In this document: in pieces, positions 33,330 to 49,236 of the stretch | How the letters are laid out: the number at the start of each line of letters is the position of its first letter | How positions within the stretch are numbered: position 1 is the stretch's first letter | Assembly (NCBI RefSeq): GCF_020614395.1 | Contig: NZ_CP085324.1 | Location: 997,564-1,061,563, forward strand | DNA: 64,000 nt | Direction: 5' to 3' | Origin: Salarchaeum japonicum | GTDB lineage: Archaea; Halobacteriota; Halobacteria; Halobacteriales; Halobacteriaceae | Made by a program: the position numbers and the translations under genes | The notes under the pieces: generated by a model | Seen by the model: the letters and a program-made list of their open reading frames with translations, nothing else | What the model was told of the DNA's origin: nothing | The model's database searches: none

Positions 33330-34046
33330 ATGGAGTTCCGTGACGCCCTCGCCGCCGACGGCGTCGTCGTCATCGTCGGAGCCGGCGGGAAGAAGACCAC
33401 GGCGTTCGCGCTCGCCGACCGCATCCCGCGCGCCGTCGTCACCACGACCACCCGCGTCCCCGACCTCACGGAGCGCGTCTCGACGTTCCGCGTGACCGAC
33501 GACCCGCGCGCCGCAATCGAGGCCGCGGCCGACTTCCCGGTCGGCGTCGTCGCCGGCGAGTACCGGCCCGGCCACTACCAGGGCTACGACCCCGACACCG
33601 TCGCCGGCCTCCGCGACCTCGCGGACGCCGTGCTCGTGAAGGCCGACGGCGCGCGCGGCCGCGAGTTCAAGGCCCCCAAGGAGGGCGAACCGCCGATCCC
33701 CGCGAACACCGACACCGTCCTCCCCGTCGCCTCCACCGCGGTCGTCGGCGACCCGCTCACCGACGAGTCGGTTCACCGGCCCGAGCGCGTCGCCGCGCTC
33801 ACCGACCTCGAAACGGGTGACACCATCGAACCCGAGCACGTCGCCGCGGTGCTCGCACACCCCGACGGCGGCCTGAAGAACGTCCCAGCGGACGCGACCG
33901 TGATTCCCGTCCTGAACAAAGTCGACGACCAGGAGCGCCGGGATATCGCCGAAGAAATCGCGTCGGGCGTCCACGAGCGCGCGGACGTGGCGCGGGTGGC
34001 GCTCACCAGTCACGTCCGCGACGACCCGCTGGTCGGCGTTCGCTAG
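33330..34046 (+). CDS. yqeC: YqeC-like protein (selenium cofactor / Mo hydroxylase accessory family)
   Basis: A 238-residue protein with the YqeC pattern: an N-terminal V-G-A-G-G-K-K-T-T P-loop-like motif near residue 16, T-T-T-T-R near 42, A-D-G-A-R-G-R-E-F-K near 112, P-A-N-T-D near 127, and an N-K-V-D segment near 199 as in NTPases. In bacteria YqeC is tied to selenium-dependent molybdenum hydroxylases; its chemistry is not settled. Here the neighbours are formate dehydrogenase, MobA and a molybdate importer, so a role in molybdoenzyme maturation is likely. Its stop interlocks with that of the opposite molybdoenzyme gene. Confidence 0.85.
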   Translation: MEFRDALAADGVVVIVGAGGKKTTAFALADRIPRAVVTTTTRVPDLTERVSTFRVTDDPRAAIEAAADFPVGVVAGEYRPGHYQGYDPDTVAGLRDLADAVLVKADGARGREFKAPKEGEPPIPANTDTVLPVASTAVVGDPLTDESVHRPERVAALTDLETGDTIEPEHVAAVLAHPDGGLKNVPADATVIPVLNKVDDQERRDIAEEIASGVHERADVARVALTSHVRDDPLVGVR

Positions 34047-35929
34047 TCGATGCGGACGGCGGTCGCGCCCGCGCGGACGAGCGGGTCGGCGGCGTCCGCG
34101 TGCAGGGCGACCGTGCCCGCGCGGATGCCGTCCGTGACGTGCGCGACCGCGTCCACTGTGGCGTCGCCGTCCACGGTCGAGACCGCGACGCGGTCGCCGT
34201 CCGCGACGCCGAGTTCGGCCGCGTCCTCGGTGTTGAGGCGGAGGCGGTCGTCGCCGGCCTCCATCCCGAACCCGCCCGCGCGGCTCGCGACCACCAGCGC
34301 GAACGCACCCTCCGGAATCCGCGACGCCTCGAACGACGGTTCGACGAACCGCGCGCGGCCGTCCGCGGTCGCGAAGGACTCCGTGTAGAGCGTGTCTTCG
34401 CCCTGCGGCCAGCGCTCGCCGTCCGGCCCGCCGTGGAGGTCGCTCACGGCCGCGAGTTCGCGCGCGGTGTCCTCGACGTCGCCCGCAAAGGCGTCACCGG
34501 CGAGCCGGCGGCCGAGGCCGCCGAGAATCGCGTGGTCGGAGCGCGCGTCCCCGGGCGGGTCGGCGCGCGGGGAGAGCCGCTGGACGCGCCGGTCGAGCGA
34601 GGTGACTGTCCCGGGTTTTTCGAGGCCGACGGCGGCCGGGAGCACCACGTCGGCGTGCGCGGTCGTCTCCGACTCGAACACGTCCAGCACGACGAGCGTG
34701 TCCAGGGACGCCAGTCGCTCCGCGACCTCGGCTTCGTCGCGCTTCGACACCCCGGGGTTCTCGCCGACGACGAGCACGCCGCGCACGTCCTCGCCGAACG
34801 CCGGCAACGCCTCCTTCTCGGTCAATCCCGGCTCCCGGGGCGGTGCGACGCCCCACGCGTCCGCGAGGCGGGCGCGCGCCGACTCGTCGTCCAGCGGCGC
34901 GTGACCGGGGAGGCCGTCGGGCCGACAGCCGGCGTCGGTCGCGCCCTGCTCGTTGTTCAGTCCGCGCAGGAGGCCGAACCCGGTACCGGGCCGACCGACG
35001 TTCCCGGTGAGCGCGAGGAGGTCGAGGAGCGCGTTCGGCGTCGCGCCGCCGTCGTTCTCCACGCCCGTCGCGGCGAGCACGGCGACCCGGTCGGCGTCCG
35101 CCACCGCGTCCGCCACCGCGTCCACCGCGTCAGCCGACACGCCAGTCTCCGCCGCCGCGCTCACGGGGTCGATGTCCGCCACCGCGTCCGCGTACGCCTC
35201 GTAGCCGGTCGTGCGCTCGTCGAGGAAGTCCCTATCCACGTCGCCGCGTTCGACGAGGCGCGCGCACACCGCCTGGAGGAAGCGCGCGTCCGACCCGGGC
35301 CGCGGCGCGACGTGGTGGCTGGCGAGCCGCGTCGTCTCGTTCTCGCGCGGGTCGACCTGCACGAGCGTCGCGTCCCCCCGGTTCACGGCGGGGCGGACGA
35401 ACGAGTCGAAGAACACGGGCTGCTGGACTGCCGGGTTCGCGCCGACTGCGAGCAACAGGTCGGTGTCGTCGAGGTCGTCGGCCGCGAACGTCGTCGCCGG
35501 ATACCCGAACCGCTCGATGAGCGCGCCCGCCGCCTCCTCGTGGCACGCCCGCGCCCGGTTGTCCACGTTGTTCGTACCGAGGGCGCGCGCGAGCTTCTGC
35601 AGGCGATAGTTCTCCTCGTTCGTGCAGTGCGGCGCGCCCAGAAACGCGAGCGCGTCCGCGCCGTACTCCGCGCGAACCCCCTGAAGGCCGTCCGCGGCGC
35701 GGTCGAGCGCGCGCTCCCACGACGCCGGGACGAGGTCGCCGTCCTCGCGGACGAGCGGCGTCGTCAAGCGGTCGGGGTCGTCCAGCACGCGGGGCGCGCG
35801 GATGCCCTTCGCGCAGAGGCTTCCGTCCGGGTTCGCGGGGCCCGTCCGGCCGACCGCGCGGTCGCCGTCGTCGCCGACGTCGAGCCGGCAGCCGACCGCG
35901 CAGAGCGGGCAGACGGTTCCCTCCGCCAT
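34043..35929 (-). CDS. Molybdopterin oxidoreductase, FdhA/NasA-like (second catalytic subunit)
   Basis: A 628-residue enzyme of the DMSO-reductase superfamily. A [4Fe-4S] site is formed by C7, C10, C14 and C39, and the likely Mo ligand is C129 in V-D-N-R-A-R-A-C-H. Later segments (T-N-E-E-N-Y near 103, L-N-N-E-Q-G-A-T-D, G-E-N-P-G) place it near formate dehydrogenase alpha and assimilatory nitrate reductase. It lacks the N-terminal extension of the FdhA two genes upstream. It is last in the fdh operon, with a TGATG junction to DUF1641. The reaction (formate oxidation or another) cannot be read from sequence. Confidence 0.85.
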   Translation of the reverse strand: MAEGTVCPLCAVGCRLDVGDDGDRAVGRTGPANPDGSLCAKGIRAPRVLDDPDRLTTPLVREDGDLVPASWERALDRAADGLQGVRAEYGADALAFLGAPHCTNEENYRLQKLARALGTNNVDNRARACHEEAAGALIERFGYPATTFAADDLDDTDLLLAVGANPAVQQPVFFDSFVRPAVNRGDATLVQVDPRENETTRLASHHVAPRPGSDARFLQAVCARLVERGDVDRDFLDERTTGYEAYADAVADIDPVSAAAETGVSADAVDAVADAVADADRVAVLAATGVENDGGATPNALLDLLALTGNVGRPGTGFGLLRGLNNEQGATDAGCRPDGLPGHAPLDDESARARLADAWGVAPPREPGLTEKEALPAFGEDVRGVLVVGENPGVSKRDEAEVAERLASLDTLVVLDVFESETTAHADVVLPAAVGLEKPGTVTSLDRRVQRLSPRADPPGDARSDHAILGGLGRRLAGDAFAGDVEDTARELAAVSDLHGGPDGERWPQGEDTLYTESFATADGRARFVEPSFEASRIPEGAFALVVASRAGGFGMEAGDDRLRLNTEDAAELGVADGDRVAVSTVDGDATVDAVAHVTDGIRAGTVALHADAADPLVRAGATAVRID

Positions 35930-36516
35930 CAGTCCTCGGAGCGGAGGCGACTCCCCTGCGAGCGGAGCACGGAGAGGAGGTAGCCGAGTCCGGCGCGGAT
36001 GTCCGCGTCGAACATCGCGCCGACGAGCGCGAACGGCCCCGCCGGCTCCGATTCCTCCTCGGCCTCCCCGACCGCGTCGAGCACGCGGTTCAATCCGGCG
36101 ACCGTGGTCTCGTCCACGTCGAGCGCGGACAGCACGCCCGCCATCTCGATGAGTTCGTCGAGGTCGCCGGACTGCTGGAGCGCGAGCACGGAGTCCAAGG
36201 CGTCCGCGAGGTCGTCGCTGTTCTCGCCGACGCCCTCCGCGAGTGCGACCGTGCCCTCGGTCGAGAGCGCGTCACCGGCCTCGACGAGCGTGACGATGGA
36301 CTGCGTGACCTTGTCCACGTCGTCGTCGTCCGCGCTCGCGATGACGAGAATCGCCGTCTCCAGGACGGCTTCGAGCTCGTCCGTGTACTCGATGGCGTCC
36401 GCGTAGTCCCCGCCGTACTCCTCCAGAACGGAGCGCAGGGCGTCCTCGCCCTCCTGCGGTCGCTCGGGTTCGACGTTCAGCGCCGCGTCGGGAACGTCAG
36501 TGGTCGGTTTCGCCAT
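35929..36516 (-). CDS. DUF1641 protein, formate dehydrogenase-associated
   Basis: A 195-residue acidic helical protein of the DUF1641 group, which accompanies FdhA-type enzymes (for example next to YjgC in Bacillus). The central part is a run of amphipathic helices with A-L-D-S-V-L and L-I-E-M-A-G-V-L-S-A-L-D-V; the end has A-D-I-R-A-G-L-G-Y-L-L-S-V-L. It sits between the two molybdoenzyme genes, 2 bp after fdhA and overlapping the next by one base, so equal dosage with both is likely. It may be an assembly factor or a structural subunit. Confidence 0.82.
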   Translation of the reverse strand: MAKPTTDVPDAALNVEPERPQEGEDALRSVLEEYGGDYADAIEYTDELEAVLETAILVIASADDDDVDKVTQSIVTLVEAGDALSTEGTVALAEGVGENSDDLADALDSVLALQQSGDLDELIEMAGVLSALDVDETTVAGLNRVLDAVGEAEEESEPAGPFALVGAMFDADIRAGLGYLLSVLRSQGSRLRSED

Positions 36517-36518
36517 CG

Positions 36519-38816
36519 TTAGTCGTCACCCGAGACAGGTTCGCGCGTCTCGAAGTCGACGTCCGGTTCGCCCTCCACGGGCGTCACGCGCACCGCGGAC
36601 ACCTTGAACTCCGGCGTGCGGGCGTGCGGGTCGAGGCGCTCCGAGTCCGTGAGTTTGTTCACGCACGTCTCCGCGAAGTGAATCGGCGCGAACACCGTCC
36701 CCGACCCGATGCGGGCGGTGACCTGCGCGGGCACCGTGATTTCGCCGCGGCGGGATTCGAGCGTGACGAGGTCGCCGTCCTCGATACCGTAGTCCGCCGC
36801 GTCCTCGGGGTTGATCTCCACGAAGTCGCGGTCGTTGTACCCCTGGATTCCCTCCTCGGGGTGCGTCATCGTCCCCGTGTGGTACTGGTAGAGCACGCGC
36901 CCGGTCGTGAGCGAGAGCGGGTAGTCCTCGTCCGGGAGTTCACCCGGCTCGTTGTACCCGACGGCCTGCAGGTGCGCGAGCCCGTCCTCGGTGTTGAACT
37001 CCTCGGTGTAGAGGCGTTCCGTGCCGGGATGGTCGAGGTCGTAGCACGGCCACTGCAGGCCGCCCTCCTCCTCGACGCGCTCCTGCGTGATACCGCCGTA
37101 GATGGGGGTGAGCTGGCGCATCTCCTCCATGATTTCGGCGGTGTTGTCGTAGTCCCACTCGCGGCCCATCCGGTTCGCGAGGTCCTGGAGGATTTCCCAG
37201 TCGGTCTTCGAGTCGCCCTTCGGGTCGATGACCTGCTTCACCATCTGGACGCGGCGGTCGGTGTTCGTGAATGTCCCCGTCTTCTCCAGGAACGAACACG
37301 CGGGCAGCACCACGTCCGCGTACTTCGCGGTGTCGTTCAAGAAGAGGTCCTGGACGACGAGGAACTCCATCTCCTCCAGAACCTCGGAGGCGTGGTTCGA
37401 CCCGGGTTCGGAGAGCGAGGGGTTCTCACCGATGCAGTACATCCCCTGGAGTTCGTCCTCGTTCGCCGCGAGGAACATCTCCGTCGTGTAGAACCCGGGT
37501 TCGGGGTCGATTTCGCAGTCCCAGGCCTCCTCGAACTTCTTCCGGTTCTCCTCGTCCGTGATGGACTGGTAGCCGGGGAAGTTGTCCGGGAGCGGCCCCA
37601 TGTCGCCGCCGCCGCCCTGGACGTTGTTCTGCCCGCGGAAGGGGGACACTCCCGTCCCCGGTTTGCCGAGGTTGCCGGTGATGGCGGCGAGGTTCGCCAT
37701 CGCCATGATGTTCTCCGTGCCGTGGGAGTGCTCGGTCAGGCCGAGCGTCCACCCGAACACGACGCGGTCGTTGCTCGTGATGGTCTCCGCGGCCGACTTC
37801 AGTTCCTCGGGCGTGACGCCCGTGACCTCCTCGACGTAGTCGGGCGTGAACTCTTGGACGGCCTCACGCACCTGGTCGATGCCGCGCGTGCGCTCTTCCA
37901 CGAACTCCTCGTCGTAGAGGTCGTTCTCGATGATGTACCGGACGAGGCCGTTGATCCAGACCTGGTCGAACCCGGGCCGGACTTCCGTGTACTGGGTGGC
38001 GTACTCGGCTATCTGAACCTCGCGGGGGTCGAAGACGACGAGCTCCTTCCCGTCCTTGACGTGCTGCTTGATGCGCGTCGCGAGCACGGGGTGGGCTTCG
38101 GTCGTGTTCGACCCGGTGAGGAAGATGGCGTCCGCCTGCTCGAAGTCCTCCGTCGAGACGGACGCGGCACCGTAGCCGTACGTCCGCGCGAGCCCGGCGA
38201 CCGTCGAGGAGTGACAGAGCCGGTTGCAGTTGTCGACGGTGTTCGTCCCCAAGACCTGTCGGGCGAACTTCCCCATCAGGTAGTTCTCCTCGTTCGTCGC
38301 CTTCGAGGACGCGATCATGCTCATCGCGGAGCCGCCGTACTCCTCCTTGATGTCCTGGAAGCCCTCGACGACGCGCTCGTAGGCCTCGTCCCAGGAGGCT
38401 TCGCGGAACTCGCCGTTCTCGTCGCGGACGAGCGGCGTCGTCAGCCGGCCCTCGGAGTCCACGAAGTCGTACGTGAACTTCCCCTTCACGCACGTCGAAA
38501 TGCCGTTCACCGGCGACTTCTCGGGTTCCGTGGGCCGGGTGGCGAGCACTTCGTCGCCGTCCGTGTACACGTCGAACCGACAGCCGACCGCGCAGTAGCC
38601 GCAGGTCGTGTCCTCGACGGTGAGGTCTTCGAGGCGCTTATCGCCGATGGTGGTCGCGATGTCGAACAGCTTCCCCTCGGGGAGCGTTCCCGCGGCCGTC
38701 CCCTCGGCGACGTGCTCGACGTTCGACAGCGCCTTCTTCCGGGCGCCCTGCATGAAGCCGGCGACGCCCTCCTTCTGTTCCTCGTCGTCCGTGGTGCGTT
38801 CGTCCAAGTTCGTCAT
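36519..38816 (-). CDS. fdhA: Formate dehydrogenase alpha subunit, molybdopterin-dependent
   Basis: A 765-residue molybdo/tungstoenzyme. An unusual ~65-residue helical N-terminal extension precedes the [4Fe-4S] ligands C72, C75, C79 and C109. The metal ligand is C201 in V-D-N-C-N-R-L-C-H-S-S, the standard Fdh context with Cys instead of selenocysteine. G-Q-N-N-V-Q-G and D-M-G-x-L-P-D-N-F-P-G-Y follow, characteristic of FdhA. It oxidises formate to CO2 in the cytoplasm (no signal peptide). The NuoG-like ferredoxin part that is fused to FdsA in bacteria is here a separate gene upstream with a 4-bp overlap. Confidence 0.92.
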   Translation of the reverse strand: MTNLDERTTDDEEQKEGVAGFMQGARKKALSNVEHVAEGTAAGTLPEGKLFDIATTIGDKRLEDLTVEDTTCGYCAVGCRFDVYTDGDEVLATRPTEPEKSPVNGISTCVKGKFTYDFVDSEGRLTTPLVRDENGEFREASWDEAYERVVEGFQDIKEEYGGSAMSMIASSKATNEENYLMGKFARQVLGTNTVDNCNRLCHSSTVAGLARTYGYGAASVSTEDFEQADAIFLTGSNTTEAHPVLATRIKQHVKDGKELVVFDPREVQIAEYATQYTEVRPGFDQVWINGLVRYIIENDLYDEEFVEERTRGIDQVREAVQEFTPDYVEEVTGVTPEELKSAAETITSNDRVVFGWTLGLTEHSHGTENIMAMANLAAITGNLGKPGTGVSPFRGQNNVQGGGGDMGPLPDNFPGYQSITDEENRKKFEEAWDCEIDPEPGFYTTEMFLAANEDELQGMYCIGENPSLSEPGSNHASEVLEEMEFLVVQDLFLNDTAKYADVVLPACSFLEKTGTFTNTDRRVQMVKQVIDPKGDSKTDWEILQDLANRMGREWDYDNTAEIMEEMRQLTPIYGGITQERVEEEGGLQWPCYDLDHPGTERLYTEEFNTEDGLAHLQAVGYNEPGELPDEDYPLSLTTGRVLYQYHTGTMTHPEEGIQGYNDRDFVEINPEDAADYGIEDGDLVTLESRRGEITVPAQVTARIGSGTVFAPIHFAETCVNKLTDSERLDPHARTPEFKVSAVRVTPVEGEPDVDFETREPVSGDD

Positions 38817-39730
38817 GGCCAGTCACGCTCCTCGTCGCCACCCGTCTCCCGGGTGGTCTCGGTTACCTGGTCGCGCTTCATCGGGGTCATCGGTCCCTTC
38901 TCCACGTCCGCGGACTCCACGACCTTCCCGACGCTGTTCTTCTGATTGAACCCGGGCAGGGGGATAGTCGTCGCGTCCTCGATGCCTTTCTCGACGAGAC
39001 TCCCGGTCGGGCAGACGGTGACGCAGTGCCCGCAGGAGACACAGGTCGAGCCCTCCATCGTGTCCGAGCCGTTCTGGAACCCGATGCGGGTGTCCCCGCC
39101 GTGGCCCTCCATGCGGAGAACGCCCTCGACCTGCACGTCGTTACACGCCTCCACGCAGCGGTTGCAGAGGATGCACTTGTTGCGGTCGATCTGGATGAAG
39201 TCGCTCGTGTCGTCGATGGGTTCGTACTCGTCGCGGTCGTCGAGCACGCCGTACCGGGGTTCCTCCACGTCGTTCTCGATGGAGACGTCCTGGAGGTCGC
39301 ACCGGCCGTTCTTCCCGCACGTCGTACAGCGGAGGTTGTGGTCGGAGAGCACGAGGTCGAGGTTCACGTCCCGCGCCTCGGACGCGGGAGCGGCGTCCGT
39401 GGACACGTCGAGGCCGTCCTCGGCGGGCGTGCTGCACGCCGGCACGACGCCCTCGTCGGTCTCGACCATGCAGGTTCGACACTCGCTCCGCGGGCCGATG
39501 TCCTGGCGGTCGTAGTGACAGAGCGCGGGCACGTACTCGTCGGTCTCGACTTCCTCGACGGCGTCGAGCAGGGTCGAACCCGCTTCGACCTCGACCTCCT
39601 GGCCGTCCACCGTGACGGTCGCGGTCTCCGCGCTCGTCACGTCGGGGTCGCTCGCGGTTCCGGGCGCAATCGTCTCCGTCAGTGGCGGTACGTCGAACTC
39701 CGAATGTGGTTCTGGTTCGTGTGAACTCAT
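38813..39730 (-). CDS. NuoG-type Fe-S subunit of formate dehydrogenase
   Basis: A 305-residue electron-transfer protein carrying four cluster sites. A plant-type [2Fe-2S] uses C71, C84, C87 and C99; a His-ligated [4Fe-4S] as in complex I NuoG uses H131, C135, C138 and C144; two ferredoxin clusters use C186/189/192/196 and C230/233/236/240. About 35 poorly conserved residues lead the domain and a charged tail ends it. It would wire FdhA to the NuoF-like subunit. Both ends overlap neighbours by 4 bp (ATGA), so it is translationally coupled. Confidence 0.93.
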   Translation of the reverse strand: MSSHEPEPHSEFDVPPLTETIAPGTASDPDVTSAETATVTVDGQEVEVEAGSTLLDAVEEVETDEYVPALCHYDRQDIGPRSECRTCMVETDEGVVPACSTPAEDGLDVSTDAAPASEARDVNLDLVLSDHNLRCTTCGKNGRCDLQDVSIENDVEEPRYGVLDDRDEYEPIDDTSDFIQIDRNKCILCNRCVEACNDVQVEGVLRMEGHGGDTRIGFQNGSDTMEGSTCVSCGHCVTVCPTGSLVEKGIEDATTIPLPGFNQKNSVGKVVESADVEKGPMTPMKRDQVTETTRETGGDEERDWP

Positions 39731-41217
39731 GGTTTCGCCCTCGCTGGCTCCTCTCCTGTCGCGTCAGAGAGACACTGTCCGGCGGGACACGTCCCCTGCG
39801 CGTGCGCTTCGAACTCCTCCGCGAACTCCTGGAGGCCCGTGCGGACGGGCCGCGGCGCGTGCTGGCCGAACGCGCAGACGCTCGACGACTCCATCACGCG
39901 CATCAGTTCGTCTATCTTCGGGCGGTCGAGCGACCCCTCGTACACGTCCCGGAGGAGTTCGGTCAACTGCTTCGACCCCTCGCGGCAGGGCACGCACCGC
40001 CCGCAGTTCGCGTCCTCCGCGAACTGCGCGCGCTTCCCGACGAACGCGACCGGACACGCGTCCGGGCCGAGCACTTCGAGCACGCCGTCCGTCCCGAGGT
40101 CGGCGGCGTCGAGCGCGTCCGGCGTCGGCGTCACGTCGAGGTCGGTGGTCAGGCCGCCGAACCGACCGCCGACGAGCACGCCCGTGTAGTCGCTGACGCC
40201 GGCGGCGTCGAGCGCGGTGTCGAGCGCGTCGTCCGCGGTGAGTTCGAGCGTCGCCTCGTCGGCGTCCCCCGTCACGGACAGCACGCGCGAGTCCGTGGGT
40301 TCGCCGCGAACAGCGGCGGCGACGTGCGCGACCGTCCGCGCCGTGTGCACCACGGTCGGCTCGCCGAACACGCCCTCGACCTCCGGCCCCGGCGGGCGGA
40401 GGCGGGCTTCGAGCCGATGGTTGCCCTCCACGGCCTCGATAGCCATCGTCGGTTCCGCGGCGCGGTACGCCGCCGGCCCCTCCACCACCGACACGTCCAC
40501 GGGGAAGTCGGGGTAGGCGTCCGCGGCGGCGGTGAGCGCGTCCCGGGCGGCCTCGTCGTCCTCGCTCACGTACACGAACACCTGCACGGCGTCCACGACG
40601 CGCGCGACGTGCGCCGCGCCCTCAAGTACAGAAAACGGGTCGCTCTCCCCGAGGAGCGCGTCGCCGGGGTTGCCGTGGGCGTTCACGACGACGGCGGGAC
40701 TGCCGTCGCGCTCGCGGACGCCCTCCCAGAGCGGGCCGACGGGTTCGTCGGCGCTCCAGTCCCCCCAGCCGCGCCCGAGCACGCCGCCCGCGCTCTCGAC
40801 GACAGCGTCGGGGTCGGCGTCGGTGAAGCCGACCGCGTCGGCGTACGCGTCCGGGTTCGTCGGCGCTATCCAGCCGCACCGCGCGAGCACCGAGCGCTCC
40901 GCCCCGAACCCGTCGAGGTCGGGGAGCGGGAGCGCCGCCGCGTCCGCTGTATCGACCGTCGCGTCCCCGTCGGGAAGCGCGCCGTCCCCGGCGAGCGCGT
41001 CCGCGACGGCTTCGGCGTCCGCTGGTGTGGCGTTCGCGTAGAACGTCGTCTCGTCGCCGTCGCTCGCGGCGAGGAGCGGTTCGACGCCCGGCACGCCCGT
41101 CGAACCCGCCTCGACGACTGGTGCGTCCGCTCGCTCGCGGGCGGCCGCCGCGACGTCCCCCGACTCGCGACCGGCGACCCGTACCGCGAGTCGCTGGCTT
41201 CCTACAGTTTCAGACAT
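39727..41217 (-). CDS. NuoF-like subunit with degenerate FMN/NADH site
   Basis: A 496-residue protein aligned by motif order with NuoF/FdsB. The C-terminal N3-type cluster ligands are intact (C405, C408, C411 in N-C-G-R-C-V-P-C-R-E-G and C448 in S-S-V-C). The FMN/NADH part is not: the Gly-rich loop reads L-G-R-G-W-G-D-W near 147-154 instead of G-R-G-G-A-G-F-P-T-G, and the C-G-E-E-T-A-L motif is Y-R-A-A-E-P-T-M-A near 251-259. Two extra Cys lie near the end (C477, C482). No NuoE-like partner is nearby. It heads the operon and probably passes electrons to something other than NAD. Confidence 0.8.
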   Translation of the reverse strand: MSETVGSQRLAVRVAGRESGDVAAAARERADAPVVEAGSTGVPGVEPLLAASDGDETTFYANATPADAEAVADALAGDGALPDGDATVDTADAAALPLPDLDGFGAERSVLARCGWIAPTNPDAYADAVGFTDADPDAVVESAGGVLGRGWGDWSADEPVGPLWEGVRERDGSPAVVVNAHGNPGDALLGESDPFSVLEGAAHVARVVDAVQVFVYVSEDDEAARDALTAAADAYPDFPVDVSVVEGPAAYRAAEPTMAIEAVEGNHRLEARLRPPGPEVEGVFGEPTVVHTARTVAHVAAAVRGEPTDSRVLSVTGDADEATLELTADDALDTALDAAGVSDYTGVLVGGRFGGLTTDLDVTPTPDALDAADLGTDGVLEVLGPDACPVAFVGKRAQFAEDANCGRCVPCREGSKQLTELLRDVYEGSLDRPKIDELMRVMESSSVCAFGQHAPRPVRTGLQEFAEEFEAHAQGTCPAGQCLSDATGEEPARAKP

Positions 41218-41255
41218 CGTGCATCGTCTCGAACAACTGTTCTCAAGCCAGCCCC

Positions 41256-41264
41256 AAATAAGTT
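41256..41264 (-). promoter_or_regulatory. TATA box of the formate dehydrogenase operon
   Basis: AAATAAGTT (plus-strand reading) lies 39-47 bp upstream of the start at 41217 on the minus strand, giving a leader of roughly a dozen bases. It is the only clear AT-rich element in the gap to mobA. Confidence 0.5.
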
Positions 41265-41350
41265 TGTTCACGCCGCCTATCCGCCAGAAAGCGGCGACTC
41301 GCGCCGGTTCGAACGACGCGCTTTTCCAGCGGCCACAACTACTATGCGCG

Positions 41351-41959
41351 ATGCCCGACCAGCGCGACCGCGGCGTCGTCCTCGCCGGCGGCGACAGCAC
41401 GCGGTTCGGCGACGCCGACAAGGCCCTCGCGGCCGTGGCGGGGACGCCGATGGTGCGCCGCGTCTTCGACGCGCTCGCGGACGCCACCGGCACGCCGCCC
41501 GCCGTCGCCGCCGGCTCCAGCCCCCCCGACGCGTACCGCCGCGTCCTCCCCGACGGCGTGCGGTTCGTTCCGGACGACGACGACTACGCCGGCCCGCTCG
41601 CCGGCCTCGCCGCGGCCGCGGCCGGACTCGACGCCGACTGGCTGTTCGCCGCCGCCACCGACCTCCCCCGGCTCGACGCGCCCGCCGTGCGGTGGCTCGC
41701 GGCCGAACGCACCCCGGACTGCGACGCGGTCGTGCCGGTCGCCCCGGACGGCGTCCAACAGCCGCTCTGCGCGTGGTACCGCCGCAGGGCCGTTCTCGAC
41801 GCGCTCACGAACGTGGCGGGGACGGCGGGACCGCGCGCCCTCCTCGACCGCCTCGCCGTCCGCCGCGTCACCCAGGCCGACGCGCCGCCGGCGGTGTCGC
41901 TCGCGGACGCGCTCACGAACGTCAACACCCGCGACGAGTTCGGCTCCCTCGACCCCTGA
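41351..41959 (+). CDS. mobA: Molybdenum cofactor guanylyltransferase (MobA)
   Basis: A 202-residue nucleotidyltransferase with the L-A-G-G-D-S-T-R-F-G-D-x-D-K-A-L signature near residues 11-26 and the A-T-D-L-P strand near 103. MobA joins GMP to molybdopterin to make the bis-MGD cofactor that FdhA-type enzymes need, so its place next to the fdh operon makes sense. The start is the ATG at 41351; an out-of-frame ATG lies 7 bp before. It is transcribed away from the fdh operon. Confidence 0.9.
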   Translation: MPDQRDRGVVLAGGDSTRFGDADKALAAVAGTPMVRRVFDALADATGTPPAVAAGSSPPDAYRRVLPDGVRFVPDDDDYAGPLAGLAAAAAGLDADWLFAAATDLPRLDAPAVRWLAAERTPDCDAVVPVAPDGVQQPLCAWYRRRAVLDALTNVAGTAGPRALLDRLAVRRVTQADAPPAVSLADALTNVNTRDEFGSLDP

Positions 41960-42072: not shown

Positions 42073-42098
42073 CTCCTGTGAGTCCCCGGGCTAAGGTG

Positions 42099-43400
42099 AT
42101 GTCCACAGTCAGCGCAGACAAGAACAGGTGGCTCATCGCGCTCTCGGCGGTCGCGATCCACCTCTCCATCGGTAGCATTTACGCGTACAGCATCTACCAA
42201 AACCCGCTCCAGGAGAGCCAGGGCTGGTCGAGTACTGACGTCACGCTCGCGTTCTCCATCGCCATCTTCGTCCTCGGCTTCACGGCCGCGTTCCTCGGGA
42301 AGTACGTCGAGAAGTACGGCCCCCGGAAATCCGGGCTGGCCGCCGCCGTCCTGTACGGCCTCGGCATGATCGGCTCCGGGCTCAGCGTACAGATCGGGAG
42401 CCTGCCGCTGTTCCTCGCCGCGTTCGGCGTCGTCGGCGGCATGGGTCTCGGTCTCGGCTACATCACTCCCATCGGCACGCTCGTCGAGTGGTTCCCGGAC
42501 CGCCGCGGCATGGCGACCGGCCTCGCCGTCATGGGCTTCGGGGCGGGCGCGCTCGTCACCAGCCCGCTCGGCAACGAACTGATGCTCAGCTTCAGCACGG
42601 GAGCCGCGGAGTACACGCCCGGCGGCATCGCAACGACCTTCTACGCGCTCGGCGCGCTCTACTTCGTCCTGATGGCGGCTGGCGCGAGCTACCTCAAGAA
42701 ACCGCCCGAGGACTGGCTCCCCGAGTCGATGCACGACATCGAGGACGCCCAGGAGCAGGCGTCCGGCGCGCTCCCCGGCCTCGACATCCTCAGCGCCGCG
42801 GAAGCCCGCGGAACCCCGCGCTTCTTCCTCATCTGGGGCATCGTCTTCATCAACATCACCGCCGGTATCATGCTGCTCGCGTTCGCGTCCCCGATGCTCC
42901 AGGAGATCGGCGGCGCAACCGCTACCACCGCAGCGTTCATCACGGGCTACATCGGCATCTTCAACGGCGGCGGCCGCATCTTCTGGTCGACGCTCTCCGA
43001 CTACATCGGTCGGACGACGACCTACGCGGCGTTCATGGTCATCCAGATCGTCGCGTTCTTCGTGATGGTGCAGATCACGGGCGTCTGGGCGCTCGCCGCG
43101 CTGTTGTTCCTCATCATCACGTGCTACGGCGGCGGGTTCGCGTGCCTGCCGGCGTACCTCAGCGACCTGTTCGGCACGAAGGACGTGTCCGCGATTCACG
43201 GCTACGCGCTGACCGCGTGGGCTATCGCGGGCGTCGTCGGCCCACAGCTCGCGTCCTACGTCGTCGAAACCACCGGTAACTACACGAACGCGCTCTACGT
43301 GGTCAACGGCCTGCTCGTCGTCGGCCTCGTCCTCGTCGTCGTCCTCTGGCGGCGCCTCCAGCGCTTCGAGGAAGCGAGCGCGTCCCCCGCGTCGGCCTAA
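42099..43400 (+). CDS. MFS transporter, OxlT (oxalate:formate antiporter) family
   Basis: A 433-residue protein with about twelve helices and the OxlT-family marks: an N-terminal W-L-I-A-L-S-A-V-A-I-H-L-x-I-G-S-I-Y-A-Y-S-I-Y helix, G-K-Y-V-E-K-Y-G-P-R in the 2-3 loop, and G-L-G-Y-I-T-P-I near 118 with W-F-P-D-R-R-G-M-A-T-G after it. A cytoplasmic loop with basic and acidic residues joins the halves. The family moves carboxylates such as oxalate and formate. Its position beside fdh and mobA makes a formate or dicarboxylate substrate reasonable, but the family is broad. Confidence 0.85.
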   Translation: MSTVSADKNRWLIALSAVAIHLSIGSIYAYSIYQNPLQESQGWSSTDVTLAFSIAIFVLGFTAAFLGKYVEKYGPRKSGLAAAVLYGLGMIGSGLSVQIGSLPLFLAAFGVVGGMGLGLGYITPIGTLVEWFPDRRGMATGLAVMGFGAGALVTSPLGNELMLSFSTGAAEYTPGGIATTFYALGALYFVLMAAGASYLKKPPEDWLPESMHDIEDAQEQASGALPGLDILSAAEARGTPRFFLIWGIVFINITAGIMLLAFASPMLQEIGGATATTAAFITGYIGIFNGGGRIFWSTLSDYIGRTTTYAAFMVIQIVAFFVMVQITGVWALAALLFLIITCYGGGFACLPAYLSDLFGTKDVSAIHGYALTAWAIAGVVGPQLASYVVETTGNYTNALYVVNGLLVVGLVLVVVLWRRLQRFEEASASPASA

Positions 43401-46268: not shown

Positions 46269-47276
46269 ATGGGAGAACAACGGTCGCGGCGCGCCGTCCT
46301 CGCCGGGGCGGGGGCGTCCGCCGCGTACGCGCTCGCCGGCTGTCTCTCCGCCGCGGGCGACACGGGCGACGAGACCGACCTGACGGTGTTCCACGCGGGT
46401 AGCCTCTCCCCGCCGTTCGCCGCCGCCGAGGACGGCTTTGAGGCGGAGACCGGCGCGCGCGTCGTCCGCGAACCGAAGGGGTCGGTCGCGTCCACGAAGA
46501 AGGTGACGCGGCTCGGCCGGCGCGCCGACGCCCTCGGCGTCTCCGACTTCCGCCTGCTCCGCGACCGCCTCCTCCCCGACGACGGCGACTGGTACGGCAT
46601 CTTCGCCACGAACGCGATGGCCATCCAGTACACGCCCGACTCCACCGGTGCGGACGAGATCTCGCGGGAGAACTGGTGGGAGGTACTCTCGCGGGACGAC
46701 GTGACCGTCGCGCACTCCGACCCCGCCGTCGACCCCGGCGGCTACCGCGCCGTCATGAGCATCCGCCTCGGCGCGATACCGTTCCGCGGGAGCGCGCTCT
46801 ACGACGCGGCCACCCGCGACGCCATCCTCGACAATACCGTCGTTCCGACGGGCACCGAGGCGAAACTCACCGCGCCGCTCCGCAGCGGGAAGTACGACTA
46901 CGTCGTCTACTACCGGTCGCTCGCGTCCACCGCCGACCTCCCCTGGATAGCGCTCCAGCCGCAGGTCGCGCTCTCCCGGGCGACCGACGAGTACGCCGCG
47001 CACTACGCGAAGGCGACGGTGGATACTGACGCCGGGACGTTCGTCGGCGCGCCCATCGCGTACGGCATGACCGTCCCGTCGGTCGCTCGCTCGCCCGAGC
47101 TGGGCGCGCGCTGGGTCGCGTACTTCGCCACCGACCCCGGCCGGCGCGCGCTCCGTGACGCCGGCCTCGAACCAGTGACGCCGCTCGCCGTCCCCGCCGA
47201 CAGCGCGGACGCCGTCCCCGACCGCGTGCTGGCGCGGGCGAGCGCGACCGACCACCTCGGCCCGCTCTCCCTCTGA
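46269..47276 (+). CDS. wtpA: Molybdate/tungstate-binding lipoprotein (WtpA-like)
   Basis: A 335-residue substrate-binding protein with a Tat lipoprotein signal (S-R-R-A-V-L around residues 6-11, lipobox L-A-G-C25). The mature part has F-H-A-G-S-L-S-P-P-F near residue 42, the WtpA/ModA oxyanion-binding start, S-D-P-A-V-D-P-G-G-Y-R near 155, and Y-D-Y-V-V-Y-Y-R-S-L-A near 218. WtpA proteins bind tungstate and molybdate, often with higher affinity for tungstate. It overlaps wtpB by one base and feeds metal for the molybdopterin enzymes encoded upstream. Confidence 0.92.
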   Translation: MGEQRSRRAVLAGAGASAAYALAGCLSAAGDTGDETDLTVFHAGSLSPPFAAAEDGFEAETGARVVREPKGSVASTKKVTRLGRRADALGVSDFRLLRDRLLPDDGDWYGIFATNAMAIQYTPDSTGADEISRENWWEVLSRDDVTVAHSDPAVDPGGYRAVMSIRLGAIPFRGSALYDAATRDAILDNTVVPTGTEAKLTAPLRSGKYDYVVYYRSLASTADLPWIALQPQVALSRATDEYAAHYAKATVDTDAGTFVGAPIAYGMTVPSVARSPELGARWVAYFATDPGRRALRDAGLEPVTPLAVPADSADAVPDRVLARASATDHLGPLSL

Positions 47277-48220
47277 TGTCCGACCGCCCCGGCGACCGAA
47301 CCGTCCTCCTCGCCGTCCTGACCGTGCAGGTCGTCGCGTTCGCAGTCTCGCTCGCGCTCGGCTACCCGACGCTGTACGCGGTCTTCATGGTCGTCTCCGC
47401 GATAGCGCTCGCGTACGGCGCGAACGCCGGCCTCGCGGGGATGGCGGGCGCGGCACTCGCGGCCGTCCTCCTCGTCGCGCTCGCGTTCCCGCTCGCGCTG
47501 TTCACCGCGCGTCAAGACCCGGAACTCGTCCTCGAAACACTCCGCGACCCCGCCGTCCACCGGATGCTGTACGTCTCGCTGTACGCGCCCCTGCTCGCCG
47601 CCGCGCTCGCCGTCACCACGGGCCTCCCGCTCGCCTACCTCCTCTCCCGCGACCCGCCCGGCGGCGCGCTCCTCCAGAGCGTCGTCGACCTCCCGCTGGT
47701 CGTCCCGCACGCCGTCGCCGGCATCGTCGTCCTGTTCGGGTTCGGCGAGGGCGGCGCGTTCCCCGGCCTCCCCGTGCTCGGAACCGTCACGGGCGCGGTG
47801 CTCGCGATGACGTTCGTCTCCGCGCCGTACGCCGTCAACAGCATCCGGAACGGCTTCGAATCAGTGGACTCCCGGGTCGAGCACGCCGCCCGCGTCCACG
47901 GCGCGAGCGCGTTCGAGACGTTCCGCCGCGTCACCCTCCCGCTCGCCGCCAGGGGCGTCCTCACCGGGGGCGTGCTCGCGTGGGCGCGCTCCGTCAGCGA
48001 GTTCGGTGCGGTCGCCGTCGTCGCGTACACCATCGAGTTCTTCTACCCGCTCGCGGGCGAGAGCGTGCGCTCCTCGCACGCCCCCGTCTTCGTCTTCAAG
48101 ACGTACCTCGCGGGGTCGCTCGACGAGGCGAACGCCGTCGCGTTCGTCCTGCTCGCGGTGAGCATCGGCATCTTCGTCGTCGTCCGCCGCGTCGCGGACG
48201 ACGGGGGGCGAGTGCTGTGA
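47276..48220 (+). CDS. wtpB: Molybdate/tungstate ABC permease (WtpB-like)
   Basis: A 314-residue permease with six to seven helices and the ABC permease EAA loop (E-H-A-A-R-V-H-G-A-S-A-F-E-T-F-R-R-V-T-L-P-L-A) near residue 201-223. The N-terminal 70 residues add two or three extra helices compared with ModB. D-L-P-L-V-V-P-H-A-V-A-G and G-A-V-A-V-V-A-Y-T are family segments. It starts in the wtpA stop and ends in a 4-bp overlap with wtpC. Confidence 0.92.
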   Translation: MSDRPGDRTVLLAVLTVQVVAFAVSLALGYPTLYAVFMVVSAIALAYGANAGLAGMAGAALAAVLLVALAFPLALFTARQDPELVLETLRDPAVHRMLYVSLYAPLLAAALAVTTGLPLAYLLSRDPPGGALLQSVVDLPLVVPHAVAGIVVLFGFGEGGAFPGLPVLGTVTGAVLAMTFVSAPYAVNSIRNGFESVDSRVEHAARVHGASAFETFRRVTLPLAARGVLTGGVLAWARSVSEFGAVAVVAYTIEFFYPLAGESVRSSHAPVFVFKTYLAGSLDEANAVAFVLLAVSIGIFVVVRRVADDGGRVL

Positions 48221-49236
48221 CGCGCGGTCTCGACGCTCGCGTCCGCGCGACGTTCACGACCGAGGGCGCGGAGCCGTTCGACGTGGACGCCGCGCTCTCC
48301 GTCCCCCCGGGCGAGACGCTCGTCGTGCTCGGGCCGAGCGGGAGCGGGAAGTCCCTCCTCCTCGAATCCCTCGCGGGCCTCCACGACGGCGACGGTCACG
48401 TCCGCCTCGACGGCCGCGACGTCACGGACGACCCGCCCGACTCTCGGGGGTTCGGGTTCGTGTTCCAGGACTACGCGCTCTTCTCTCACCGGAGCGTCCG
48501 CGAGAACGTCGCGTTCGGCCAGCGCTACCAGTCGCGGCCGGTCGCGGACGCGGACGACGAGCGGTCGGCGTTTTCGCTCGCCACGACAGCGGACGAGACC
48601 GCGCCCCTCCCGAATCCGGACGCGCTCCTCGCCGCGCTCGGCGTCGCCGACCTCGCGGAGCGGTCGCCGGACACGCTCTCGGGCGGGGAGCGCCAGCGGG
48701 TCGCGCTCGCGCGCGCGCTCGCCGTGCGGCCGGACGCGCTCCTGCTGGACGAACCGCTCTCCGCGCTCGACGAGCCGACGCGGCGCGCGCTCCGCGACGA
48801 CCTCGCCGGCGTGCTGGACGGCGTGACGGCGGTGTACGTGACGCACGACCGGACGACGGCGCGCGCGCTCGCCGACCGGGTCGCCGTGATGGCGGACGGC
48901 CGGATTCGACAGACCGGCACTCCCGCCGAGGTGTTCGAGACCCCGGAAACCCCGCGGGTCGCGCGGTTCGTCGGCGCGAACGTCCTCAACGGAACGCCGT
49001 TCGGGTATGCGGGGGAGCGGGTCGCGGTGCGGCCCGAGCACGTCGAACTCGGCGTCGCCGACGCGAGCGCCCGCGGGACGGTCGAGCGCGTGACGCGGGA
49101 GGACGCGGCGTTCCGCGTGGTTCTCGACCTCGATGGCGAGCGCGTCGCGGCGTTCACGACCGACCCGCCGACGCCGGGCGAGACGGTCGCGCTCGGGGTC
49201 GCAGACGCAGACGTGACGGTGCTCGCGGCGGAGTGA
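48217..49236 (+). CDS. wtpC: Molybdate/tungstate ABC ATPase (WtpC/ModC-like)
   Basis: A 339-residue ATPase. Walker A is G-P-S-G-S-G-K-S near residues 39-46, the signature is L-S-G-G-E-R-Q-R-V-A-L-A, and Walker B L-L-L-D-E-P-L-S follows. The C-terminal ~110 residues form a TOBE/Mop-like metal-sensing domain (G-E-R-V-A-V-R-P-E-H-V-E-L). It starts with GTG at 48217 inside the wtpB stop (GTGA). It powers the WtpAB importer and may be inhibited by bound oxyanion, as known for ModC. Confidence 0.92.
   Translation: MTRGLDARVRATFTTEGAEPFDVDAALSVPPGETLVVLGPSGSGKSLLLESLAGLHDGDGHVRLDGRDVTDDPPDSRGFGFVFQDYALFSHRSVRENVAFGQRYQSRPVADADDERSAFSLATTADETAPLPNPDALLAALGVADLAERSPDTLSGGERQRVALARALAVRPDALLLDEPLSALDEPTRRALRDDLAGVLDGVTAVYVTHDRTTARALADRVAVMADGRIRQTGTPAEVFETPETPRVARFVGANVLNGTPFGYAGERVAVRPEHVELGVADASARGTVERVTREDAAFRVVLDLDGERVAAFTTDPPTPGETVALGVADADVTVLAAE

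Follow-up and report, generated by a model that had tools for sequence, protein, structure and literature searches.

How does a cytoplasmic formate dehydrogenase (FDH) of a haloarchaeon pass on its electrons, if the NuoF-like subunit encoded at the head of its operon has lost the motifs for FMN and NADH? This question was raised by a 64,000-nucleotide stretch of Salarchaeum japonicum DNA (contig NZ_CP085324.1), which was analysed as a whole and is called the window here. In earlier papers, the haloarchaeal cytoplasmic FDH was described as a single subunit, and ferredoxin or Etf was guessed to be its acceptor (PMC5437934, PMC6176080). A preliminary description of the locus had given the position of the NuoF-like gene, its motifs GRGWGDW and RAAEP and its N3 cysteines, and the open reading frame and our alignment agreed with all of them. 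The gene (39727..41217, minus strand) starts with ATG at 41217 and encodes a NuoF/HydB-like (51K) subunit of 496 residues, in which the N3 cluster is kept and the FMN/NADH motifs are replaced. It heads an operon, and the genes for FdhB, FdhA, a DUF1641 protein and a second FdhA-like protein follow, overlapping or abutting.

The NuoF-like gene is the sole PF01512 (51K) gene of the genome (2.34 Mb, 99% complete). Pfam detected a strong NADH_4Fe-4S domain (E 1e-21) and a weaker Complex1_51K match for the FMN domain (E 1.3e-10), and the NCBIfam NuoF model TIGR01959 gave 95.8 bits, far under its cut-off of 558.65. The AlphaFold2 (AF2) model, built with 40 haloarchaeal sequences, had a pLDDT of 92. 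Its fold matched NfnB of Caldicellulosiruptor (Z 44), HydB of Acetomicrobium (Z 42.6) and Nqo1 of T. thermophilus (Z 39). These fold matches identify the protein as a complete 51K subunit with a HydB/NfnB-type thioredoxin-like domain at its N-terminus (about residues 10-90; 40948..41190, minus strand), which aligns with NfnB/HydB from model residue 10.

Matches to the NuoF-like protein were detected in 156 of 391 sampled Halobacteria genomes, and a few of them were canonical relatives. The genome-contig scan returned 80 loci from haloarchaea alone. When the phylum was scanned, scores of at least 365 bits were found inside Halobacteria only; canonical haloarchaeal relatives reached at most 255 bits and other classes at most about 251 bits, and the matches outside Halobacteria were mostly of HydB length. 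In the tree, the proteins of two classes, A and B, formed one clade that excluded every canonical protein (SH-aLRT 100), and class A was a single clade nested in it. One fragment (L092) belongs to class A by the tree, though its score alone gave class B. After duplicate removal, class A comprised 37 distinct proteins and class B 69, at least 106 together. The clade of these proteins, whose pocket has been rebuilt as described below, is restricted to haloarchaea. The window operon belongs to class A. FdhB is encoded by a gene of its own in 37/37 class A loci and is mostly fused to FdhA in class B. Counted from trimmed domains, DUF1641 stands beside the FDH genes in all 37 distinct class A loci and in 0/69 class B loci. 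At one locus (L159, genome G063), a shortened NuoF-like gene continues in frame into the sequence for the C-terminal part of FdhA, which seems to be the remnant of a deletion. HTSR_1736/1740 of Halodesulfurarchaeum was considered as the same operon and dropped, since no evidence was obtained.

To describe the former FMN/NADH pocket, alignments of 23 class A and 70 class B proteins were compared with 14 canonical NuoF/HydB/HoxF/FdsB proteins, which served as the reference for invariant positions. All pocket features lie on the minus strand. The Gly-rich FMN loop, canonically GRGG(A/G)G, reads GRGWGD (residues 148-153, 40759..40776; GRGWGDW is 148-154). W151 and D153 were each found in 23/23 class A proteins and D153 in 69/70 of class B, at positions where the canonical proteins have Gly (14/14). 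The NADE(G) loop became NAHG (179-182, 40672..40683), in which H/G replaces canonical D92/E93 (E. coli numbering), and a four-column deletion after it takes out part of the NADEGxPG loop in class A. At the Y-x-C-G-E-E motif the sequence is YRAAEP (251-256, 40450..40467; RAAEP is 252-256). Here Cys is changed to Ala in 22/23 and E183 (E. coli numbering) to Pro in 23/23 class A proteins; both Cys and Glu are present in 14/14 canonical ones. The N-N-V-E motif became HTAR (291-294, 40336..40347), with H291 in 23/23, T292 in 22/23 and R294 in 23/23 of class A, and R294 also in 70/70 of class B. The motifs GRGGxGF, NADE, CGEE and NN are thus replaced in 23/23 class A proteins, and G151W, G153D, E256P, N291H and E294R are fixed in 100% of them. 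In E. coli numbering, the class A replacements are G64W, G66D, D92H, E93G, C180A, G181A, E183P, N217H, N218T and E220R. The motif loss seen in the preliminary description is therefore real. It is not due to chance, because the changes are fixed in the relatives, and a sequencing error was ruled out because they are seen across many genomes.

Canonical NuoF/HydB relatives with every motif retained also occur in haloarchaea, so the loss is not due to salt adaptation. Pocket-loop identity to bacterial proteins was 72% for these canonical relatives versus 34% for class A. For a conservation test, the pocket was defined ahead of testing as the five FMN/NAD loops given in the HydB structure paper (PMC8880783). 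The class A consensus of these loops agreed with the canonical one at only 13 of 36 positions, and the loops scored higher in conservation (0.865) than the remaining positions (0.703; p < 5e-5 by resampling). The class B loops likewise exceeded the rest of the protein (p 4e-4), N3-less members included. No excess conservation was observed over all changed canonical-invariant positions (p 0.44); it was seen only for the pocket loops. The loss of canonical residues and the new conservation are shown directly, as are the intact FdhB ligands, the obligate DUF1641 pairing and the relation to ForC described below. The loops have a new form, and they vary less than the remaining sequence: the pocket has been rebuilt and not left to decay. 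It is consequently very unlikely that the NuoF-like gene is a decaying, functionless relic in an enzyme otherwise like ForCE of Bacillus subtilis. The stepwise loss of the thioredoxin [2Fe-2S], FMN and, in class B, N3 sites would be expected of a relic, but the reading frame is open in nearly all homologues, the gene is the first of its operon, and the rebuilt pocket and the metal site exceed the remaining sequence in conservation. A pseudogene was ruled out, as the reading frame is open and conserved.

The NAD/FMN site, which seemed dead in the preliminary description, very probably is so, as the canonical contacts are replaced. An Asp in the Gly-rich loop should oppose flavin binding, and the charge of Asp153 is perhaps offset by the new Arg294. 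When the FMN pocket was checked by sequence and fold, as had been proposed, the 51K fold was retained and the conserved FMN/NADH contacts were absent. We infer that the subunit carries no bound FMN. Binding of flavin or another nucleotide in an altered way, with reduction of NAD(P)+ or another two-electron carrier, seems a poor explanation. The fold is intact in the AF2 model at high confidence, R149, G150, N179, E255, T288, T295, GGxxGG and GTxG are retained, and the pocket is under selection, all of which would suit such binding. However, the canonical contacts are removed by D153 and W/R151 together with the loss of D92/E93, E183, N217/N218, C180 and F203 (E. coli numbering), and nearly half of class B are without a complete N3 to link a flavin to the wire.

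The cysteines of the NuoF-like subunit in the translated reading frame are 114, 388, 405, 408, 411, 448, 477 and 482. There are none in residues 1-113, and the canonical TGCxGxC is changed to GSTGVPG. The thioredoxin-like region holds 0-2 Cys in class A and 0-2 in class B, and 4-7 in most canonical proteins. Judged from these sequences, the [2Fe-2S] ligands of the domain are lost. The preliminary description had found no NuoE-like subunit nearby, and no NuoE/FdsG-like gene (PF01257) was matched anywhere in the 2.34 Mb genome. A separate gene is thus missing, but the NuoF-like protein has a thioredoxin-like domain of its own, without cluster cysteines.

The N3 [4Fe-4S] ligands C405, C408 and C411 (39985..40005, minus strand) are present in 23/23 class A proteins, and the fourth ligand C448 (39874..39876, minus strand) in all of class A and B. 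In class B, N3 is often incomplete: C411G was found in 33/70, and 25 of these also have C405S (25/70). C477 and C482 had been taken as extra cysteines. They align instead with Cys531 and Cys536 of Acetomicrobium HydB, which belong to a known Zn or [2Fe-2S] site. C388 (40054..40056, minus strand; 23/23 class A, 70/70 class B) and H472, which with C477 and C482 (CPAGQC; 39772..39804, minus strand) is nearly invariant in both classes, complete the correspondence to Cys438/His525/Cys531/Cys536. This site was modelled as [2Fe-2S] in Acetomicrobium HydB (PMC8880783), and its counterpart in T. maritima as Zn bound by three Cys and a His (PMC9499530). On the alignment, C388/H472/C477/C482 is the ancestral HydB metal site. 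A further C-terminal cluster peculiar to the NuoF-like subunit was ruled out, as C477 and C482 belong to that site.

FdhB (38813..39730, minus strand) is a HoxU/NuoG-N-like iron-sulfur subunit with one [2Fe-2S] and three [4Fe-4S] motifs by Pfam/NCBIfam. All of its 16 cluster ligands are intact in every protein compared (class A 23/23, class B 69/69, together 92/92). With redox sites lost stepwise in the NuoF-like subunit and the FdhB wire intact, the electrons would exit at FdhB, at least in the N3-less class B. In class A, where N3 is fully kept, the NuoF-like subunit may still transfer electrons. An exit from N3 to a soluble ferredoxin, or to another protein docking at the emptied pocket, would agree with the retention of the N3 ligands in all class A proteins. 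[2Fe-2S] ferredoxins are abundant in haloarchaea. Near 16/57 class B FDH loci (L104, L098 and L145, for example) there is a gene for a tungsten aldehyde:ferredoxin oxidoreductase, and ferredoxin was proposed for the cytoplasmic haloarchaeal FDH (PMC5437934). However, 33/70 class B proteins are without N3 ligands, yet their pocket and FdhB clusters are kept, and an exit at N3 offers no reason for the obligate DUF1641 of class A, so we regard it as unlikely.

FdhA (36519..38816, minus strand; TIGR01591 819 bits, over cut-off) is the Mo/W catalytic subunit with the motif CH...RGQ. Its best PDB match was ForC1 (8rqz_C, 650 bits), followed by F420-FDH (618 bits) and Fds types (513-538 bits). In a tree with 3 ForC (Bacillus, Halomonas, Pantoea) and the FdsA of four bacteria, haloarchaeal FdhA of both classes was sister to ForC (100/98) and not inside it. 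CH/RGQ is found in 15/15 class A proteins, and CQ/RGH, typical of ForC, was not present. The view that the enzyme is wired like an NAD-linked Fds complex was not supported, because FdhA groups with ForC rather than FdsA and the operon has a DUF1641/ForE-like gene. An F420-linked FDH was ruled out, as no F420-binding FdhB is among the operon genes. The last gene of the operon encodes a second FdhA-like paralogue (34043..35929, minus strand; CH...RGL, under the TIGR01591 cut-off), which is present in 33/37 class A loci. RGL, in place of RGQ/H, is fixed in it (11/11), and this paralogue is fast evolving.

The other neighbours of the operon were also inspected. A divergent MobA-like Mo-cofactor guanylyltransferase gene (41219..41959, plus strand; PF12804, TIGR02665 below cut-off), whose true start is probably near 41351, is followed by a monocarboxylate (lactate / oxalate-formate family) MFS transporter gene (42078..43400, plus strand; NF049980 393 bits, over cut-off). 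Such a transporter adjoins 9/37 class A loci, the window among them. A gene for YqeC, a selenium cofactor biosynthesis protein (TIGR03172, over cut-off), lies at 33330-34046, convergent with the operon; YqeC was also found near 19/69 class B loci, although the FDHs use Cys. MobA- and YqeC-like genes are frequent near haloarchaeal FDH genes. The window also contains a tungstate-type WtpABC transporter (46269-49236), which suggests tungsten. FdhD (PF02634) was not matched in 145/145 Halobacteria genomes (G000 included), in which FDH genes are common; 8/14 control genomes had a match.

The DUF1641 (ForE-like) gene (35929..36516, minus strand) encodes 195 residues (PF07849 E 1.4e-10, over cut-off). 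B. subtilis ForCE requires ForE, a protein of the DUF1641 family, which allows it to reduce menaquinone and gives it formate:menadione activity; menaquinone copurifies with the ForCE complex, in which a menasemiquinone is bound (PMC8808070). The haloarchaeal quinones are menaquinones, and electron transfer from formate (-430 mV) to MK (-74 mV) is downhill (PMC5437934). The only PDB match of the window protein was ForE1 (8rqz_A), and it was weak (E 0.048). When the PDB was searched with the DUF1641 profile, unrelated helical proteins outranked ForE1, so the evidence for homology of DUF1641 and ForE comes from Pfam and from the alignment of the C-terminal half. The AF2 model was poor (pLDDT 67, pTM 0.34) and its fold search uninformative. 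In most class A loci (L033, L047 and others), the DUF1641 protein contains an additional internal repeat of some 50 residues, which the window copy is without.

DUF1641 is present in 221/391 Halobacteria genomes. Forty loci outside the FDH operon (L176-L195, L201-L220) were taken from the better-scoring matches, as a non-random sample, and in 40/40 of them a flavoprotein of the sulfide:quinone reductase (SQR) family directly adjoins DUF1641. Pyr_redox_2 was found in 10/10 of those tested, and type III SQR was the best match in 8/8, below its cut-off. No SQR-like gene was found at class A loci. The DUF1641 family thus partners two unrelated enzymes, one a known and the other an expected quinone reducer, which gives contextual support for a quinone role. 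A published statement linking DUF1641 with sulfide:quinone reductase was not found in the literature searched. In a Spanish saltern, the DUF1641 gene HQ_RS00700 of Haloquadratum walsbyi was among the winter top 25 transcripts, as was the neighbouring HQ_RS00695, a "probable anaerobic dehydrogenase alpha subunit" (PMC9684190). The only DUF1641 gene of genome G014, probably that of H. walsbyi C23, lies within its class A operon (L052), and HQ_RS00700 is probably the same gene.

Taken together, sequence and gene context suggest, with a probability of roughly 60%, that the operon encodes a cytoplasmic, haloarchaea-specific formate:menaquinone oxidoreductase, a relative of the ForCE branch with a flavin-free structural NuoF relative. 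The Mo/W centre of FdhA would oxidise formate, and the electrons would pass from the FdhA [4Fe-4S] cluster through the four FdhB clusters to a menaquinone site formed with the DUF1641 protein. The NuoF-like subunit would bind neither FMN nor NADH and would be retained as a structural subunit with the HydB-type Zn/[2Fe-2S] site, the class A N3 cluster serving as an optional relay. Its old pocket would have been refitted under selection, and it may now serve for rigid packing, bind another ligand or act as a docking face. Among the acceptors named in the preliminary description (ferredoxin, a quinone-linked protein or another partner), the quinone-linked route is favoured, with ferredoxin as a less likely rival. 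Against the main reading, FdhA has CH/RGQ and not CQ/RGH, DUF1641 matches ForE1 weakly outside the Pfam core and its AF2 model is poor, and N3 is complete in all of class A. Nor can DUF1641 explain the pocket change, since class B has the rebuilt pocket without a neighbouring DUF1641. More tentatively, and with odds clearly against it, the pocket may have been rebuilt for another ligand or redox partner and kept even after N3 loss, with DUF1641 as a general quinone-access module of unrelated dehydrogenases (FDH, type III SQR). If so, the rebuilt pocket would found an FDH class with an undescribed acceptor or regulatory site.

The menaquinone reading would make the haloarchaeal cytoplasmic FDH a complex of several defined subunits with an acceptor that can be tested, and it suggests a common quinone-related role for DUF1641. 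A flavin-stripped yet conserved NuoF relative is a natural experiment on the roles of 51K subunits beyond NADH oxidation. The H. walsbyi winter transcripts indicate that the enzyme may matter ecologically.

Compared with known systems, the operon resembles ForCE1/ForCE2 of B. subtilis (YjgC-YjgD, YrhE-YrhD; PDB 8rqz) in several features: the catalytic subunits are sisters in the tree, the FdhB-type cluster ligands are identical, a DUF1641 partner gene adjoins the catalytic gene and there is no NAD site. Unlike ForCE, the haloarchaeal FdhB is a separate gene, the active site has CH/RGQ versus CQ/RGH in ForC, the operon has in addition the NuoF-like subunit and the second FdhA-like protein, and DUF1641 is only distantly similar. 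With NAD-linked FdsABG (R. capsulatus 6tg9, C. necator) it has in common CH/RGQ and the pairing of a cluster-rich FDH with a NuoF-like subunit that carries N3; in contrast to FdsABG, it has DUF1641 and is without the FMN/NADH motifs and NuoE (FdsG), and its FdhA falls outside the FdsA branches. The closest solved relatives of the NuoF-like subunit, in sequence and fold, are HydB/NfnB/StnB of bifurcating HydABC, NfnABC and Stn (7t2r, 7p5h, 9bov, 8oh5), whose Zn/[2Fe-2S] site corresponds to C388/H472/C477/C482. The HydB/NfnB motifs GGPSG and AFM are not present in the haloarchaeal subunit, which has GGRFGG and NAHG there. Unlike these relatives, it is without the C-terminal 2x[4Fe-4S] domain, the thioredoxin [2Fe-2S] ligands and the canonical FMN/NAD loops, so that no bifurcation centre is expected in it.
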